Source: Eubacteriales bacterium (lineage in GTDB: Bacteria; Bacillota; Clostridia; Saccharofermentanales; Fastidiosipilaceae). Taken from it: a stretch of 33,201 nt of DNA. The notes under the pieces are model-generated. The model worked only from the letters and a program-made list of their open reading frames with translations. It did no database searches and was not told the origin of the DNA. The stretch covers positions 1 to 33,201 of the forward strand of contig JAUNVS010000016.1 in assembly GCA_030537565.1 (NCBI GenBank), written 5' to 3'. Position numbers and translations under genes: made by a program. Of the stretch, positions 8,832 through 20,327 are shown piece after piece (position 1 is the first letter of the stretch; each line of letters begins with the position of its first letter).

Positions 8832-8894
8832 ACTATCCTGTGATTCCGACGAGGGCTAGACTTGCGTCGGTAAAATCGACTAGGGGAGATGGCC

Positions 8895-10493
8895 ATGCGC
8901 AAGAAACAGCAAGTTGAGAAACGCAAACAGACGACTTTGATTCAGAAGAGGAATCATTTCTACCTCTATTTTCTCATTCTGCTCGTTTTGGACCTCTTAG
9001 CCTTTTTATCCATTAAGCGACTGGCCATACTTGAAATTTATTTCAAGATGATCTTCCACTGCCATCCCTTTAATCTTCTGATTACTATTCCACTTTTATT
9101 CTTGATCTTGTTCCTGATCCTACGTCGAAGTCGGGGACTTCGTACCTTTGTCGTAATCTACTTTTTGCTGACCGCGCCCCTTCTTACTTGGCTTAGCTGG
9201 GAGTCCCATGGCTTCGCGCAGGCGAAACGTGGCCTCGATCTCAAAAGCGAAGTCGATCAGGCAGTTGAGGTGAATATGGACCTCTATGTACTTAAGGATT
9301 CGCCAATTAATCGACTGGAGGACTTAGGGGGCAAGCGGGTAGCCGCTGCTCTACCGCTTGATCAAGATAACGTTTTGGCAAGCCTCGCTAAGATCAACCA
9401 GGCCTATGAAACCGTCAGCTTCCCCAGCAATGCTCGGGTGATTGAAGCGCTGATCGATAAAACCTGTGACGTGGCCATCATCAACCGATCGCATTTAGGC
9501 GTTCTGCTTGAGGCTAAGCCTCAGTTCTTGAGTGAGTGCAGGCGTTTGGATATCGAATTCCCTGAGCCGAGCACAGATGATCAGCAGGGACTCGGCCATA
9601 GCGAGACGAGTGAGACGACGATTGTGGAGATGAGCTCAGCGGGTAAGTTAGAAGCAGATCGCCCAGATGCGGCGACCTCGGCGAGTGCACTGAAGCTGAA
9701 GACTGGTCTAAATCTATTTATCGGATTGCGCTCTGATCCTAGTCGTGCTGCGCTTCAGGCCGAGGCGGCAGCCCAACTAATGTTGCTGCATCGCCCCGAG
9801 GCCCGACACTCGATTCTTCTTTCGGTTCCGAGCAACTTTTGTGTTGAAGACGGGCAGGAGGGGATCGAGGGCGAGGATCTCTGGCGCTTTCTCCCCTTAG
9901 CGGGTCGCAAGTCGCAGATGGCGGCTCTATCGAAGATTAGTCATTTAGAGCTCGACGACTACCTTATTCTTGATGAGTCCAGTCTCATCGAACTGGTTGA
10001 CGCCCTTGGCGGGGTTGAAGTCAATAATCCGGTCGCTTACGAAAATCATGATTTTCAGTTTCCAGTCGGAAACCTGCACTTAGATCACGATCGCAGCCTC
10101 GCATATATTGGTTTAGACTCAGCATCACAGCCAAACTCAGATACACCTAGCTCGACTGAGGTTTTCGATCTTGCTCTCGGGCAGCGTCAGCAAGCTTTGT
10201 TGGAGGGATGCATTGCCAAACTCTATGATTACAAATCACTGATGCGTCTCAAGACCTGCCTCTCGATCCTTAGTCGGGGGGCAGAGAGCAACCTCAGTTT
10301 CGAATCTCTCACGCGCTTTCTCTTCGACTGTTATCAAGCAAACCGCGATCAGCGGCTTGAAGTCTTGCGACTTAGTGGGAAGAAAATCACGGACTTTAGT
10401 TCAGAGCAGATTCCGGATCAGAAGCTTGAAGCCATCGCTTACAGTGATGAGACTAAGTCGATGATCAGTGAGGCGATCTGGGGCATCGAATGA
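8895..10493 (+). CDS. LCP (LytR-CpsA-Psr)-like membrane protein, catalytic residues missing
   Basis: The 532-residue product has three N-terminal membrane helices (about residues 22-105). An extracytoplasmic region follows that resembles a small periplasmic-binding-type lobe (about 125-220, LEDLGGKRVAAALP and CDVAIINRSHLGVLL). Next come an acidic, low-complexity linker (about 225-265) and an LCP-type domain to the end. LCP features are DDYLILDESSLIELVDALGGVEV and QRQQALLEG. The residues that bind pyrophosphate and metal in active LCP enzymes are altered: the SIPRD motif reads SVPSN, the YxRxR segment reads YIGLDS, and the DT at the domain start is missing. Attachment of wall polymers by the usual chemistry is therefore doubtful. 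The start at 8895 is preferred over 8889 because AGGGGAG at 8882-8888 then has a 6-base spacing. Confidence 0.75.
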   Translation: MRKKQQVEKRKQTTLIQKRNHFYLYFLILLVLDLLAFLSIKRLAILEIYFKMIFHCHPFNLLITIPLLFLILFLILRRSRGLRTFVVIYFLLTAPLLTWLSWESHGFAQAKRGLDLKSEVDQAVEVNMDLYVLKDSPINRLEDLGGKRVAAALPLDQDNVLASLAKINQAYETVSFPSNARVIEALIDKTCDVAIINRSHLGVLLEAKPQFLSECRRLDIEFPEPSTDDQQGLGHSETSETTIVEMSSAGKLEADRPDAATSASALKLKTGLNLFIGLRSDPSRAALQAEAAAQLMLLHRPEARHSILLSVPSNFCVEDGQEGIEGEDLWRFLPLAGRKSQMAALSKISHLELDDYLILDESSLIELVDALGGVEVNNPVAYENHDFQFPVGNLHLDHDRSLAYIGLDSASQPNSDTPSSTEVFDLALGQRQQALLEGCIAKLYDYKSLMRLKTCLSILSRGAESNLSFESLTRFLFDCYQANRDQRLEVLRLSGKKITDFSSEQIPDQKLEAIAYSDETKSMISEAIWGIE

Positions 10494-13485: not shown

Positions 13486-13506
13486 GTCAAGGATGCTATG
13501 AATTAG

Positions 13507-13536
13507 AGGCCTCAGCTAGCGCTGAGGCCTTTTTTT
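13507..13536 (+). terminator. Rho-independent terminator
   Basis: A perfect 10-base-pair stem (13507-13516 with 13521-13530) has a TAGC loop and a run of seven T residues ending at 13536. It ends the pyrophosphatase and unknown-gene transcript. The same DNA encodes the last codons and TAG stop of the convergent ABC gene, whose stop codon spans the last stem base and the loop. Confidence 0.9.
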
Positions 13537-15315
13537 ATCTTCAGTCTTGTTTTTTAAAGGAGCAAATTGGGCGAGGTAGAGGCGCCGATAGGCGGAAGTT
13601 CTCTTGGCCATTAATTCTTCGTGGCGTCCGATTTCAACGATTTTGCCTGAGTCGACCATAAGGATGAGGTCAGCGTCCTGGATGCTCTGCAGACGATGGG
13701 CCACGATAAAGGCGGACTTATTGTCCATCAATTCGTTCAACGTCGCTTGAATGCTTAATTCGCTACGCGTGTCGATGGAACTACTTGCTTCATCGAGGAC
13801 GAGGACGTCATGTGTTTGTAGGAAGAGGCGGGCGAGGGCGATGAGCTGGCGTTCCCCTTCGGAGAGGCTATTTTGATCTGCGTCGATCATCGTGTCGTAG
13901 GCATTCGGCAAACGGGATATAAATCCATCGGCTCGAGCTTGTTTGGCTGCTGCGATAATCTCTTCGCGGCTCGCTTCAGGCCGCCCCAGGGCGATATTAT
14001 CTGCAATGCTGGCTGTAATTAAGAAACTTTCTTGCAGGACGAGGGCGTAGTGGGCGCGTAGATCCTTGCGATCCACTTTGTAGATGCTTTTTGAGTCAAT
14101 ACGGATGTCGCCTGAATTGGCATCGTAGAAACGCAGTAACAAATTGATTAGGGTGCTTTTACCGCTGCCAGTCTTTCCAACGATAGCGACTTTAGATTTG
14201 GCGGGTATTCTCAAGTTGAGATTTTGTATTAGGGGCTTTTCGGGCTCGTAGGAGAAGTCCACATGCTCAAAAGTAAAACTGCCGTCAACCGAAGAGGGAA
14301 GGCCAATTGGATTTTCGCAATCATGCCATTCGTCACGTTCAATAAGCTCATTGAGGCGGCTTTGACTCACTCGGGCGTTTTGCAGTTCAGAGAGGACTTG
14401 GCTGATCTCATTAAAAGGGCTCGCGTACTGCTGAGCATACGCGAGGAAGGAGACTAGGATGCCGATGCTTATTTTACCCTGGTATGCGAAATGCGCTCCC
14501 AGGACAGCGATTGAGGCGTAGACAATGGCGCTGACGAATCGGTTTAAGGGATTGCTGAGCGAAGCGATAAAATTTGCCCGACGGCTGGATTCTTCAAGCT
14601 GACTGTTTAGGACTTCAAATCTGTATTTACTCTTGTCTTCAGCCGCTGCGATTTTGAGACTGCGTATCCCGTGGATTTGGTCTTCGGCATAAGCAGATAG
14701 GGCTGACCGTTTCTCGGCCTGGGCTTTGAAGTGACGATGGCTTTGGCTTGCAATAAAGCGTGCTGCGAGGACTGAGATCGGGGTTAGTAGGATGATGAGG
14801 AGGGCCAGTTGTAATTGGAGCTGGAGGATGAGCAGCATGGTGATCAAAATGCTGAATATCCCAGTAAGAAATTTTGAGAGAAATAGGGAGATACCATCAC
14901 AGATGTTTTCGATGTCGCCCGTGAGGTAGTGTAAAAAGTCTCCACGTTTCGATTGATCTAAGGCGGAGAGGGGGAGTTTCTGGAGTTTTCTGAAGAGTTG
15001 GCGACGCAAGCTATAGGCTAAGGCATAGGAAAGTCTTGCCGCCTTGCTTTCGAGAAGATAGCGGAAGCCTGCCGACAAGAGGGCCAAGCCAGCAATTGTA
15101 AGGAGTTGGACCAGGTATGGGGAGGCTGGATTTTGGCGAAGGACAGTGAGGCTGTCGATACTTCGTCCAATCTGAATTGGGATGAAGGATTGGAATGCGA
15201 CAGTTAAGAGGGCGCAGAGGACAAGCCAAGTGATCTGAGTGCTCTTTGTTTGTGGGAGGAGGGCGAGGAGTGAGCGGATTTGTTTTATTTGCTTGGAAAT
15301 TGCGAACTTTCTCAT
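13516..15315 (-). CDS. ABC exporter half-transporter, consensus-Walker subunit
   Basis: The 599-residue protein has an N-terminal six-helix exporter domain (residues about 25-310) and a C-terminal ATPase domain. Walker A is GKTGSGKST (K386), the Q-loop is VLQES, and Walker B is LVLDEAS with catalytic E509. The H-loop is H540. The signature is LSEGE at 484-488 where the consensus is LSGGQ. Paired with the upstream partner, this gives a heterodimer: this subunit supplies the Walker motifs of the working site, and its altered signature faces the degenerate site. AAGGAGG precedes the ATG. The start overlaps the partner's stop as ATGA. The substrate cannot be read from the sequence. Confidence 0.93.
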   Translation of the reverse strand: MRKFAISKQIKQIRSLLALLPQTKSTQITWLVLCALLTVAFQSFIPIQIGRSIDSLTVLRQNPASPYLVQLLTIAGLALLSAGFRYLLESKAARLSYALAYSLRRQLFRKLQKLPLSALDQSKRGDFLHYLTGDIENICDGISLFLSKFLTGIFSILITMLLILQLQLQLALLIILLTPISVLAARFIASQSHRHFKAQAEKRSALSAYAEDQIHGIRSLKIAAAEDKSKYRFEVLNSQLEESSRRANFIASLSNPLNRFVSAIVYASIAVLGAHFAYQGKISIGILVSFLAYAQQYASPFNEISQVLSELQNARVSQSRLNELIERDEWHDCENPIGLPSSVDGSFTFEHVDFSYEPEKPLIQNLNLRIPAKSKVAIVGKTGSGKSTLINLLLRFYDANSGDIRIDSKSIYKVDRKDLRAHYALVLQESFLITASIADNIALGRPEASREEIIAAAKQARADGFISRLPNAYDTMIDADQNSLSEGERQLIALARLFLQTHDVLVLDEASSSIDTRSELSIQATLNELMDNKSAFIVAHRLQSIQDADLILMVDSGKIVEIGRHEELMAKRTSAYRRLYLAQFAPLKNKTEDKKRPQR

Positions 15316-17075
15316 CGTTCAACCTCCTTACCCAAGTGCAGAAGTTCGGTACTTAATGTCTTCGGAAACTGCGTTTCGAATATCTCTCGGTAGAGAGCGG
15401 ACTTGGCCAGTAGTTCCTGATGGCTGCCGAGAGCGACTTGACGACCGTTTTCTAGCACGAGAATTTGATCGCAGTCTAGGAGACTGGAGGCGCGTTGAGC
15501 GACTCGAATTCGACTGACATTTGGTCGGAGAGATTTAATTCCCTTTCCGATGTTCATTTCGGTCTCATAGTCGAGGGCGGAGCTAATGTCATCGAGGATT
15601 AAGAGTCGGCTCTTCTTTAGCAGGGCTCGTGCGAGATTGAGTCGCTGACGCTGACCTCCTGAAAAATTGCTGCCACCCGATTCGACCTCTGTGTCCAAGC
15701 CCTCCTTTGCTTCGATAAATGCGAGGCTGTCACTGGCTTTTAGCGCAGCTAAGAGCTCCTCGTCACCTGCGCTTTCATCGAAAAGTAAGAGATTTTGTCG
15801 CAGACTATCTTGGAATAATTCCACGCGCTGGGCGGCATAGGCGATCGACTCTCGGTAGCCATCCCAACTCAGTTCTTTAAGATTGTGGCCATCGATGAGA
15901 ATTTCGCCAGAACTCGGGGGGAGAAGTCCAGCGATAACCTGGACGAGGGTGGATTTCCCAGATCCTGTTCCGCCGATGATTCCTAGACTCGTTCCTGGCC
16001 GTAGATGGAAATTGATTCCTTGAAGAGCATATTCGGGGGCATCAGGGTAGCGAAAGGCGAGGTCTCGCACGTCGAGATCCATGGGAGTCTGCTGTTCCCA
16101 TCTATCTGCCTTGCTTCTTTGTTCAGGTCGTTCTGGGTCGCTGATCCTTTCCTTTATCCTTAGATGGGCTGCAACTGCCTTTGAAATAAGAAGCATTAGT
16201 TGAACCAGTTTTAAGGCCTCAACGAGGATCGCGGACATGTAGTTGCTAAGGGCGAGAACTTCACCGGCTTCGAGGCGCTTACTCAGGACTGCTTGTCGAC
16301 CGAAGAAGAGGACAGCAAGGAGGGCTAGGTTGATGAGGAGAAAGGAAGTCGGAGCGAGCAGGGCATTTCGCTTCCCACAGACTTCGGCAACTTGGCGGGA
16401 GCTTTGATTGACCGAGTCAAAACGCTTTTCCTCAAGTTCTTGCCGATTTAGGGCGCGAAAAATTCGGCGGCCTTCGAAGTTCTCGACCAGGATGCGCGTT
16501 AGCTTCTCCAGTTTTAATTGGATTTTAAAAAAGTCGAGGATGCTGCGTCGAGAAAAATAGCTGATCAGGCCGAGGAGAAGGACGATCGTCAACGCAAAGA
16601 GGAGGGAGATTCGAGCATCGATTCGATAAGCCATGTACGCTGCTCCAAAGACGACGAAGGGGGAGCGTAAGAGCAGTCGTAGGATCATGTTGACTCCGTT
16701 TTGGACGAGATAACTGTCTGAATTCAGTCTGGTGAGAATCTCCTGTTTGGAGCTTAGTTCAATTTCTGCCGCTGACTTATTGAGGTAAGCAGAGTAGAGT
16801 TGGCTTCTCAGTTGGGCACTAAGCCGGCTAGCGGATTTGGCGGCCCAGTACTGCGCACTGGCAGCTAGAATGATTGAGACGAAGCAGATTAGAAAGAGAT
16901 TGCGCCCTGCGTTGCAGATTACATTTAGTTCATGTGCTCGAATTCCAGCATCGATCATTTTTGCGATCAAGAGCGGGACGCAGAGCTCGAGCAGCGTCTC
17001 GACCAACTTGAACAGAGGGGCGAGGAGCGATTGTAGACCAGAACTCTTCCAGATGTCGGCAACTAGGGATTTCAT
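15312..17075 (-). CDS. ABC exporter half-transporter, degenerate-site subunit
   Basis: The 587-residue protein has a six-helix exporter domain followed by an ATPase domain with Walker A GGTGSGKST and intact signature FSGGQ. In Walker B the catalytic glutamate is Asp (LLILDDISSALD), and the H-loop histidine is Gln (RVAQRAS). These two changes are the classic marks of the non-catalytic side in heterodimeric exporters such as TM287/288. The preferred start is ATG 17075, because it overlaps the preceding stop as ATGA exactly as this gene overlaps its partner. The longer TTG start at 17093 has no ribosome site. The complex should sit in the cytoplasmic membrane and export a lipid, drug or envelope molecule; the operon context favours the last. 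Confidence 0.92.
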   Translation of the reverse strand: MKSLVADIWKSSGLQSLLAPLFKLVETLLELCVPLLIAKMIDAGIRAHELNVICNAGRNLFLICFVSIILAASAQYWAAKSASRLSAQLRSQLYSAYLNKSAAEIELSSKQEILTRLNSDSYLVQNGVNMILRLLLRSPFVVFGAAYMAYRIDARISLLFALTIVLLLGLISYFSRRSILDFFKIQLKLEKLTRILVENFEGRRIFRALNRQELEEKRFDSVNQSSRQVAEVCGKRNALLAPTSFLLINLALLAVLFFGRQAVLSKRLEAGEVLALSNYMSAILVEALKLVQLMLLISKAVAAHLRIKERISDPERPEQRSKADRWEQQTPMDLDVRDLAFRYPDAPEYALQGINFHLRPGTSLGIIGGTGSGKSTLVQVIAGLLPPSSGEILIDGHNLKELSWDGYRESIAYAAQRVELFQDSLRQNLLLFDESAGDEELLAALKASDSLAFIEAKEGLDTEVESGGSNFSGGQRQRLNLARALLKKSRLLILDDISSALDYETEMNIGKGIKSLRPNVSRIRVAQRASSLLDCDQILVLENGRQVALGSHQELLAKSALYREIFETQFPKTLSTELLHLGKEVER

Positions 17076-18349
17076 GCGTTTAATTGGGTACAAAAATAAT
17101 CATAGATGGCAGTGCTTAAGGCCTTTGAAATCAAGTAACGTTTTTCTTCGTCGAGGAGGAATTTTATGTCTTCCGAAATGGCGAGGTTCCCCATTGATAG
17201 GCGCACAGTTGGGATGTTAAGGTAGCGAGCCGCTGGAAAATCCTCACTTTGAATCGCCTTTGAATTACGTGTCTGGGCCTCGAGCGCGTAGCTGGGGGCC
17301 TCGCTAGCCATCTGTGGTAGATATTGGTAAAGGCTGGACTCCAGACAGCGTGCAAAGCGGAGATCGAGTTGATCCCGATAGGCTGTATACGCTGGCTGGC
17401 TGGGTAGGTAGCGATTTAGGTCGCGTTGAAAGTAATAGCGCAAGATTTTTTCATCATTGGCTTTGGCTAAGCTTGCTGGCAAGTAGGTCAGACGATAACC
17501 GTGAAGTTGATCGGGGCCGCGGTCGCGGTCGACACTGAGATCGATGTAGATGAAGTTTTCTAGATCTCGCATATAGTCGAGGACCTTACGGGCTTCGGGA
17601 CTAATCCCTAAGCCCTGTGCGATACCGCGCGGGCTGAGTTTGGGATCTGGATTCACCTCATCACTGTTTTGATCGACAATTCGGCGGCAGGCATCGATTA
17701 AGGTCTGAATCTCAGACGTATCCTTTCCCTTACTTTCTAAGGCTTTCTTTTCTTCATGAAGAATGATTTCTGCGACAGAGAATATGCGAGCGTAATTTTG
17801 AAGTGGTATCGAGTCCTCAGCGATGATATGGACGTTTGCTCCCATTGCCTCTAATGCATAGGCCGTCATGCGTGCAATCTCCATATAGAGCTGATCTTCG
17901 AAAATTACCTGATCGCCATGGTGGAGACTGAGATTATTTCGTGTCGGATCAATCCCGGCATCAATAAAAATGTGGGCCCCGATCAGTGGGAGTTCTGATT
18001 TGCTGCGATCGATAAAAAACTGACGCGAGCTTTCGATCTGGTAGGTAATACCTGACTTATTGGACCAGCAGTCCATTTTATCGTCGACGCCCTCGATAAT
18101 TGTGTCGTCCACCTGGTTCGGGGTGATTATGTAGTGGAGGGAGATGTTCTCATCGACCTGGCTTCGGTTTTGCATACGATTTTTGATCATCTCGGGTTTG
18201 AGTACCCGTTGTTCCAGTGGATTTTCTTTTAGATAGTTGACGTCCACATGGCGACAAGCACTTGAGTTGAAGGCCAGGAGAAAAAGGAAGAGCCAAGATA
18301 TGACTCTTCGATGGCGAGTAGCTATTCGATTTGCAATCTCATAGTTCAT
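17072..18349 (-). CDS. Lipoprotein with degenerate amidase_3 fold (pseudo-amidase)
   Basis: The 425-residue protein has a basic N-terminus, a hydrophobic stretch and a cysteine at residue 32 (FNSSAC), so it is a probable but atypical lipoprotein. From residue 125 it follows the N-acetylmuramoyl-L-alanine amidase layout: IFIDAG, an FEDQLYMEIA helix, EAMGANVHII, LQNYARIFS, FIYIDLSVD, and PTVRLSMGNLAISED near the end. Three key residues are lost. The first zinc His (GHGG motif) is I133, the second (SIHAN motif) is S272, and the catalytic Glu (LVExGF motif) is Ser. Only the middle zinc ligand E151 remains. An insertion of about 60 charged residues separates the two halves. Binding to wall glycan without hydrolysis is a reasonable inference. 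AAGGAAG precedes the ATG by five bases. Confidence 0.65.
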   Translation of the reverse strand: MNYEIANRIATRHRRVISWLFLFLLAFNSSACRHVDVNYLKENPLEQRVLKPEMIKNRMQNRSQVDENISLHYIITPNQVDDTIIEGVDDKMDCWSNKSGITYQIESSRQFFIDRSKSELPLIGAHIFIDAGIDPTRNNLSLHHGDQVIFEDQLYMEIARMTAYALEAMGANVHIIAEDSIPLQNYARIFSVAEIILHEEKKALESKGKDTSEIQTLIDACRRIVDQNSDEVNPDPKLSPRGIAQGLGISPEARKVLDYMRDLENFIYIDLSVDRDRGPDQLHGYRLTYLPASLAKANDEKILRYYFQRDLNRYLPSQPAYTAYRDQLDLRFARCLESSLYQYLPQMASEAPSYALEAQTRNSKAIQSEDFPAARYLNIPTVRLSMGNLAISEDIKFLLDEEKRYLISKALSTAIYDYFCTQLNA

Positions 18350-18367: not shown

Positions 18368-19276
18368 TTAGAACTGCGCTGGGTAGAGTCCCTCTTGGTG
18401 ACGGCGCGCTAAGTTCTGCATGACTTTTTCCTTATCATCTTGGTATGTGACACCAAACCAGGTTTCGGAGCAGGGCAGTGCGTGGAGATGAATCTCCCCA
18501 GATTGGACGAGTTGGCTGATGAGGACGGGCAAAAAGAACTCGGACTTAAGTGGATTGGCAACGAGCTCAGTTTCCAAAAAGCGGATTAGAGCTGTCTCAA
18601 TTCGATCGAGGAAGGAGGCGGGGAGGGCCCAGAAATTCATGCTGACAATCGACTTGGGATCGAGAACTTGGCTGGGTTCGAGGCTGTCATCATAAAGTTT
18701 CCCATCCTCATGACGGGCGATGGACTTACACTCATAGACTGAACTGACCTCTCCCTCTGCATTAAGCTGGCAAATTCCTCTCGAGACGGATCCAAATTCA
18801 GAGACAGTTTTCGAAAGTTCATAAGCGACAAGGGCATAGTTATGGTCGAGGTCGATGGCCGGATTCGTGAGTTGCTTGTGGGCTATCTTAAACGCTGTTG
18901 GTCCATAGTAGTCATCGGCATTTAATACGCAGAAAGGCCCTGGGATTTCTGCCTTTGCACAATAGAGGGCATGAGCAGTTCCCAGGGGCTTAGTGCGGGC
19001 TGGGTCGTAGTCGACAGAGACTGGCACTCGATCAAGACTCTGATAGGCATAGGCGATATCAATCTTATTGCGCCATTTTGCTGCAACCTGTGCTTCGAAA
19101 TCATCGCGTATATCCTCTTTAATAATAAAGACGATGCGAGTAAATCCCGCCTGAATAGCATCGTAAATCGAATAATCCATCAGGGTTTGGCCCGATGGGC
19201 CTAGACCGTCGATTTGCTTGAGACCGCCATAGCGGCTTCCCATACCGGCGGCGAGGAGAACGAGTGTCGTCTGCAT
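18368..19276 (-). CDS. Sugar-phosphate nucleotidyltransferase family protein
   Basis: The 302-residue protein has the nucleotidyltransferase signature LLAAGMGSRYGGLKQ at its N-terminus and the metal-binding LNADDYYG near residue 120, with KPLGTAHAL between them. This is the fold of enzymes that join a sugar-1-phosphate to UTP, dTTP or CTP. The sequence does not show the specific motifs of GalU or RmlA, and the C-terminal half (IVSMNFWALP, then SEFFLPVLI) belongs to a distinct Firmicutes subgroup of undefined specificity. The gene lies 16 bases after galE and 18 before the pseudo-amidase gene, so a role in supplying an activated sugar is plausible. Confidence 0.82.
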   Translation of the reverse strand: MQTTLVLLAAGMGSRYGGLKQIDGLGPSGQTLMDYSIYDAIQAGFTRIVFIIKEDIRDDFEAQVAAKWRNKIDIAYAYQSLDRVPVSVDYDPARTKPLGTAHALYCAKAEIPGPFCVLNADDYYGPTAFKIAHKQLTNPAIDLDHNYALVAYELSKTVSEFGSVSRGICQLNAEGEVSSVYECKSIARHEDGKLYDDSLEPSQVLDPKSIVSMNFWALPASFLDRIETALIRFLETELVANPLKSEFFLPVLISQLVQSGEIHLHALPCSETWFGVTYQDDKEKVMQNLARRHQEGLYPAQF

Positions 19277-19292: not shown

Positions 19293-20327
19293 TTATTTGG
19301 AGTCCGCAGGACTCGTATAACCGTCTGGATTTTTCGACTGCCAATGCCAGCTATCCTCGAGCATGCGTCGGAGGTCATATTGGGCTGTCCAGTTGAGCTT
19401 TTCCTTTGCCTTCGTTGGATCGAGGTAATTCTCCGCAATGTCGCCAGGTCGACGTGCTTTAATTTCGTAGGGGAGTTTTCGTCCACAGACTTCGGAGTAG
19501 CAGTTAAGGATTTCGAATACAGAGTAACTGCGTCCAGTACCGAGATTAATGGCATCGAAGCCCTTACGTGTGTTCATCTCTGCGAGTGCAGCGACATGGC
19601 CCTTTGCGAGGTCGACAACGTGGATGTAGTCACGGCGTCCAGTTCCGTCTGGGGTGGGGTAGTCATCTCCAAAAATATTGAGGTGATCGAGTTTGCCGAC
19701 GGCCACTTTTGCAATATAAGGAACGAGGTTCCCAGGAATTCCATTGGGTTCTTCGCCAATCTCGCCAGATTCATGGGCACCGAGGGGGTTGGCATAGCGA
19801 AGAGCCGTCGCAATGAACTCAGGATCTGCTTTTGCATAATCCTCTAAAAAGCGTTCGTTGATAATCTTTGATTGGCCATAGGGATTAGTGGCAGAGCTCG
19901 TTCCGACGGACTCAGCAATTGGCAGATGCTCGGGTTCTCCATAGACTGTCGCTGAAGAGGAGTAAATGATTTTGTGACAGCCGAACTTACGCATGCTATC
20001 TAAGATGTTAAGCGTCGAAATCAGGTTGTTTTTATAGTATTCGATCGGCTTGAGACAGGATTCGCCGACGGCCTTTAGTGCTGCGAAGTGGATCACCGCT
20101 TCGAAGGGGCCATACTGCTCAAAGAGCTGGTCCACAAAACTCTGATCATCGAGATCGCCCTCGGCGTATGGAATCGATGTGCCTGAAATCTTCTCGAGTC
20201 GCTTAATTACCTCAGGACAGGAGTTGGAAAAGTTATCAGCGATGACAACTTCGTAGTCCGCCGATAAGAGTTCAAGAATGGTATGACTTCCGATATAGCC
20301 CGCACCACCGCACACTAAGATTTTCAT
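19293..20327 (-). CDS. galE: UDP-glucose 4-epimerase
   Basis: The enzyme interconverts UDP-glucose and UDP-galactose, and in some lineages the N-acetyl forms, using bound NAD. The 344-residue product has the NAD motif GGAGYIG at 7-13, the SSSATVYG segment with catalytic serine, and the catalytic pair Y150/K154 in YGQSK. It also has the substrate-loop segment LRYANPLGAHESGEIGEEP, where most relatives have Phe in place of the Ala-preceding Tyr. GGAGG precedes the ATG. It is the first gene of a five-gene minus-strand operon and follows a good -10 sequence. Length is typical. Confidence 0.95.
   Translation of the reverse strand: MKILVCGGAGYIGSHTILELLSADYEVVIADNFSNSCPEVIKRLEKISGTSIPYAEGDLDDQSFVDQLFEQYGPFEAVIHFAALKAVGESCLKPIEYYKNNLISTLNILDSMRKFGCHKIIYSSSATVYGEPEHLPIAESVGTSSATNPYGQSKIINERFLEDYAKADPEFIATALRYANPLGAHESGEIGEEPNGIPGNLVPYIAKVAVGKLDHLNIFGDDYPTPDGTGRRDYIHVVDLAKGHVAALAEMNTRKGFDAINLGTGRSYSVFEILNCYSEVCGRKLPYEIKARRPGDIAENYLDPTKAKEKLNWTAQYDLRRMLEDSWHWQSKNPDGYTSPADSK

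Follow-up and report, generated by a model that had tools for sequence, protein, structure and literature searches.

The gene analysed here would encode a catalytically dead, outward-facing and membrane-tethered Amidase_3 pseudoenzyme, kept for a non-catalytic role at the cell wall as a sensor, scaffold or regulator, a reading to which we assign a probability of roughly 60%. That this pseudo-amidase is non-hydrolytic and extracytoplasmic is well supported by sequence comparison and modelling, namely by its predicted fold, by the loss of active-site residues and by a likely orthologue, also disarmed, from another genus of the same bacterial family (genome G008). We infer that the protein lacks activity and that its role is a non-catalytic one.

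The gene is found in a window of 33,201 nucleotides, this being the whole stretch of DNA that was analysed, and belongs to an apparent operon (Table 1) with the order galE, nucleotidyltransferase, pseudo-amidase, exporter subunit 1 and exporter subunit 2, closed by a strong hairpin. The intergenic gaps are 16-18 bp, plus two overlaps, one of them being the ATGA at 17072-17075 shared by the stop codon of the pseudo-amidase and the ATG of exporter subunit 1. Codon usage and GC3 of the pseudo-amidase reading frame are like those of the neighbouring genes. The two exporter subunits form a heterodimeric exporter, although no listed family model reached its cut-off for the pair. In subunit 1, the Walker B motif is LLILDD, with Asp replacing the catalytic Glu, and the signature of subunit 2 is degenerate (LSEGE), so that the pair resembles heterodimeric exporters (MsbA-like, SmdAB-like) with one degenerate ATP site. 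For the nucleotidyltransferase (18368-19276), named families match weakly. Also, a by-eye reading of window positions 8889-10493 indicates an LCP (LytR-CpsA-Psr)-like protein with an apparent insertion resembling a solute-binding protein (GGKRVAAALPLDQDN...).

Table 1. Features of the apparent operon and active-site codons of the pseudo-amidase, in window coordinates.
Feature	Coordinates	Strand	Remarks
UDP-glucose 4-epimerase GalE	19293..20327	-	first gene of the apparent operon
Sugar-phosphate nucleotidyltransferase-like protein	18368..19276	-	302 aa; 18 bp upstream of the pseudo-amidase gene
Pseudo-amidase	17072..18349	-	425 aa from ATG; Amidase_3 fold at residues about 122-423
I133 codon	17951..17953	-	first zinc-ligand His position
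E151 codon	17897..17899	-	sole zinc ligand kept
S272 codon	17534..17536	-	second zinc-ligand His position
S385 codon	17195..17197	-	catalytic Glu position
ABC exporter subunit 1	15312..17075	-	587 aa
ABC exporter subunit 2	13516..15315	-	599 aa
Terminator-like hairpin, strong	13505..13532	.	end of exporter subunit 2; scored on the + strand

On profile and model grounds, the window protein is a member of Amidase_3 (PF01520) as a homologous fold family. The Pfam model matches residues 356-415 with 14.9 bits, below its gathering cut-off of 27, and an hhalign comparison of the single sequence with a profile of 13 intact relatives gives a probability of 99.5 and an E value of 4.8e-23 over residues 89-422. 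Because a sequence search of the PDB with the window protein returned no match at E<=10, the fold was assessed from a model. The AlphaFold2 model (pLDDT 77.1, pTM 0.75), which depends partly on the sequence evidence since intact amidases were included in its alignment, superimposes on solved Amidase_3 amidases with Z scores of 17-19 over 175-197 residues, being 19.3 for the C. difficile amidase 4rn7, 19.2 for Rv3717 and 17.9 for E. coli AmiC; the first structures outside the family appear at Z of about 9.5. The Amidase_3 layout claimed in the original prediction is therefore borne out by both the profile alignment and the model, the best structural matches being Amidase_3 amidases and no unrelated fold. 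Homologues are present in 40 of the 58 related genomes, and a scan of the genome contigs with the window protein as the only query gave no match.

In the active site, three concordant alignments (two with MAFFT, one with hhalign) place I133, E151 and S272 at the His-Glu-His zinc ligands of the zinc N-acetylmuramoyl-L-alanine amidases and S385 at the catalytic Glu of the V-E-x-G-F motif. None of them restores the metal ligands, and the loss of both zinc histidines and of the catalytic Glu, with E151 alone retained, stands as it was first proposed. The conserved Asn that follows the second His is replaced as well (D274), and binding of peptidoglycan is thus not assured, although the modelled fold suggests that the protein may bind the wall. 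Compared with the zinc amidases AmiC, CwlV, Rv3717 and CwlD (PF01520), the protein is alike in fold (residues 122-423), in motif order and in E151, and it is clearly homologous to the intact-motif members of its own bacterial family. It differs from these enzymes in lacking the two zinc histidines and the catalytic Glu, in its sub-threshold Pfam score and in a long insertion common to its subfamily.

This insertion, at about residues 183-262 between the two halves of the domain, had been regarded as a special feature of the protein, an added charged segment. It is a family trait: the same insertion splits the Amidase_3 matches of relatives that have the full DPGHGG...E...SIHCN...VLVEMGF motifs, so that its being unique to the window protein can be discarded. 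Only a short low-confidence stretch around residues 350-361 is peculiar to the window protein. At the N-terminus, a hydrophobic segment followed by C32 is read from the sequence, although the lipobox N-S-S-A-C32 does not fit the standard pattern, being atypical at positions -3 and -4, where small or aliphatic residues are expected. In the G008 homologue, ILVGC-HRVDV aligns with NSSAC-RHVDV of the window protein, the mature proteins starting alike. The lipoprotein assignment made at first sight is accordingly retained because of homology to the G008 protein, and not on the lipobox of the window protein itself; on this basis we infer an outward-facing lipid anchor. Two subfamily relatives, at L114:4993-6996 (G003) and L042:1441-3522 (G010), carry several LysM-like repeats at the N-terminus, where an anchor and linker usually stand.

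The losses recur in part in the G008 homologue, where the second His is replaced by Asn (SLNMS) and the catalytic Glu by Gln (ALQCG), with the first His and the Glu ligand retained. The exporter subunits of the window and of G008 are sisters in the trees of both subunits (SH-aLRT 98 and 100), both regions include a linked gene for a HelD-like helicase, and the CdaA tree groups the window genome with G008 (82/91); on these grounds, the lipoproteins of the two genomes are most likely orthologous. The amidase tree by itself does not support this orthology because the terminal branch of the window copy, with a length of 2.27, is the longest in the tree. A clade of the window copy with G008 is not rejected (AU p 0.288), nor is its placement with the lipoprotein-type copies (AU p 0.361). 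The free tree joins the window copy to those of a neighbouring family of the same order (f3), a placement that is distrusted given the branch length and these two results, and that is perhaps due to long-branch attraction.

Disarmed copies are also found in that neighbouring family. A homologous gene lies near cdaA and glmM at about 20 loci in this order, and in most f3 genomes the amidase gene begins 1-4 bp after glmM. The order cdaA(-YbbR)-glmM-Amidase_3 is conserved at L065:1706-5812 as well as at some 20 further loci. All 14 f3 copies examined are missing one or more catalytic residues, the degeneration ranging from a single change (for example, the catalytic Glu to Thr in G043 or the second His to Gln in G046) to no recognisable motif, and 12 of the 16 f3 genomes have no other Amidase_3 match. 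In close pairs, dN/dS is 0.09-0.14 for the disarmed f3 copies and 0.12-0.18 for intact copies, these ratios being rough because dS approaches or exceeds 1 in several cases. The disarmed copies are under purifying selection as strong as that on the intact ones, and selection thus keeps disarmed copies in this order. Given that the f3 copies as one clade are not rejected (p 0.38), two origins of disarming, one in f3 and one in the lineage of the window and G008, fit the data; a single origin for both may also apply. Tandem duplicates of the amidase gene, with both copies motif-intact, are seen in three genomes (L037:5581-8207, L038:5998-8630 and L049:7151-9917).

These data bear on the first alternative, that the gene is a decaying relic of an amidase no longer needed in a lineage of small genomes, and is drifting to loss. 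The very long branch of the window copy, the small genomes and the absence of a detectable copy in two genomes of the family (G001 and G004) agree with such a decay. However, the reading frame of 425 codons is intact with normal codon usage, the fold is still recognisable, and the disarmed homologue of another genus (G008) also has an intact reading frame. Moreover, the strong purifying selection on the f3 copies speaks by analogy against a relic, which we consider unlikely; since disarmed copies are under selection in a related family, the inactive protein probably has another task at the wall that involves no cutting.

The second alternative comes from the exporter genes. The protein would here serve the ABC exporter as its dedicated accessory lipoprotein, catching or handing over an exported envelope component (e.g. 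a glycan or a peptide) at the outer face of the membrane. The ATGA overlap, the apparent operon with galE and the nucleotidyltransferase, and the presence of the same exporter orthologues about 0.7 kb from the homologous G008 lipoprotein gene point in this direction. Nonetheless, in G008 the lipoprotein and exporter genes are divergent with a Dps-like gene in between. The claim that the protein is made together with the exporter is supported by the ATGA overlap. Also, the orthologous exporter pair of eight other genomes of the family has no adjoining amidase gene, the amidase genes of these genomes being elsewhere or absent and those neighbouring ORFs that were read being other than amidases. 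A general rule of exporter association is in this way discarded, other genera keeping the exporter without an amidase beside it, and substrate handing as an obligate role, one of the functions first suggested, is consequently unsupported. Most disarmed copies of the order, in addition, adjoin cdaA-glmM and not exporters. A dedicated exporter accessory is thus quite unlikely; a partnership of some kind with the exporter, based only on apparent co-transcription and on linkage in two genera, would be possible.

Finally, an altered enzyme with a new or weak activity, working without metal or through a metal site reconstituted from E151 and H143/H144 or other residues, is very unlikely: E151 is kept and the two histidines lie in a hairpin just before it, but neither histidine is matched in G008 or in most relatives, and both likely orthologues have lost the catalytic Glu.

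A non-catalytic wall protein of the kind preferred here has a precedent in CwlM of mycobacteria, an Amidase_3 homologue that has not conserved the zinc-coordinating residues and is essential as a regulator, not as an enzyme (PMC4946905). The window protein is CwlM-like in being an Amidase_3 homologue without conserved zinc residues. Unlike CwlM, which is cytoplasmic and has no secretion signal, it has an N-terminal membrane or export signal; and whereas CwlM is phosphorylated, activates MurA and controls MurA and MurJ, the window protein belongs to another operon and a distant lineage. A literature search for degenerate Amidase_3 proteins other than CwlM returned nothing specific. Another likeness is with activators of the GerS-CwlD and EnvC type, which are non-catalytic envelope proteins working with amidases, and in which the folds of GerS and EnvC differ from the Amidase_3 pseudo-amidase fold. 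GerS is a lipoprotein that activates CwlD (PMC8496864), and EnvC is without catalytic residues (PMC4946905). Unlike in these systems, no other Amidase_3 that the window protein could activate was found in the window genome (84% complete), and a partnering active Amidase_3 of its own genome is discarded within that coverage. Neither Amidase_2 nor NLPC_P60 was found in the same 84% complete genome, and the G008 genome yielded no second Amidase_3.

GlmM is reported to inhibit CdaA, the c-di-AMP cyclase (PMC8573169). The gene order of the f3 operon suggests that a wall-facing pseudo-amidase may be part of this CdaA-GlmM circuit. In the window genome, cdaA and glmM are on separate contigs (C43 and C66), neither with the pseudo-amidase, so that a remaining link between cdaA and the pseudo-amidase is rejected. 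At L107:3761-5332, a cyclic-nucleotide-binding (CRP-like) gene stands before the cdaA gene of the window genome, an arrangement shared with several relatives; neither glmM nor an amidase gene comes after this cdaA.

According to the mechanism proposed for the non-catalytic pseudo-amidase, the protein would most likely descend from lipoprotein-type amidases of the same bacterial family. The second His and the catalytic Glu would have been lost first, a loss common to the G008 genus, and the first His later, and the zinc hydrolysis of the family should be impossible for the window protein. The ancestral scaffold would be retained to hold either peptidoglycan or a partner protein at the outer face of the membrane. 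The protein would be made together with GalE, the sugar nucleotidyltransferase and the heterodimeric ABC exporter; that it also acts directly with this exporter is possible, and is the weaker part of the claim.

A wider proposal, which at present we regard as doubtful, is that disarmed Amidase_3 proteins would constitute a recurrent class of outward-facing wall sensors or scaffolds in this order, the f3 copies, as part of the cdaA-glmM operon, informing CdaA-GlmM control of c-di-AMP and of amino-sugar supply, and a protein of the same kind having been transferred to an exporter operon in the window lineage. Regulation of wall growth by degenerate wall hydrolases is known from EnvC and CwlM, but CwlM, the Amidase_3 case, is cytoplasmic. 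What would be new is a membrane-tethered and outward-facing Amidase_3 pseudoenzyme, with disarmed counterparts under strong purifying selection within the c-di-AMP synthase/GlmM operon of the neighbouring family. If this is true, wall sensing by CdaA and GlmM becomes a directly testable question.
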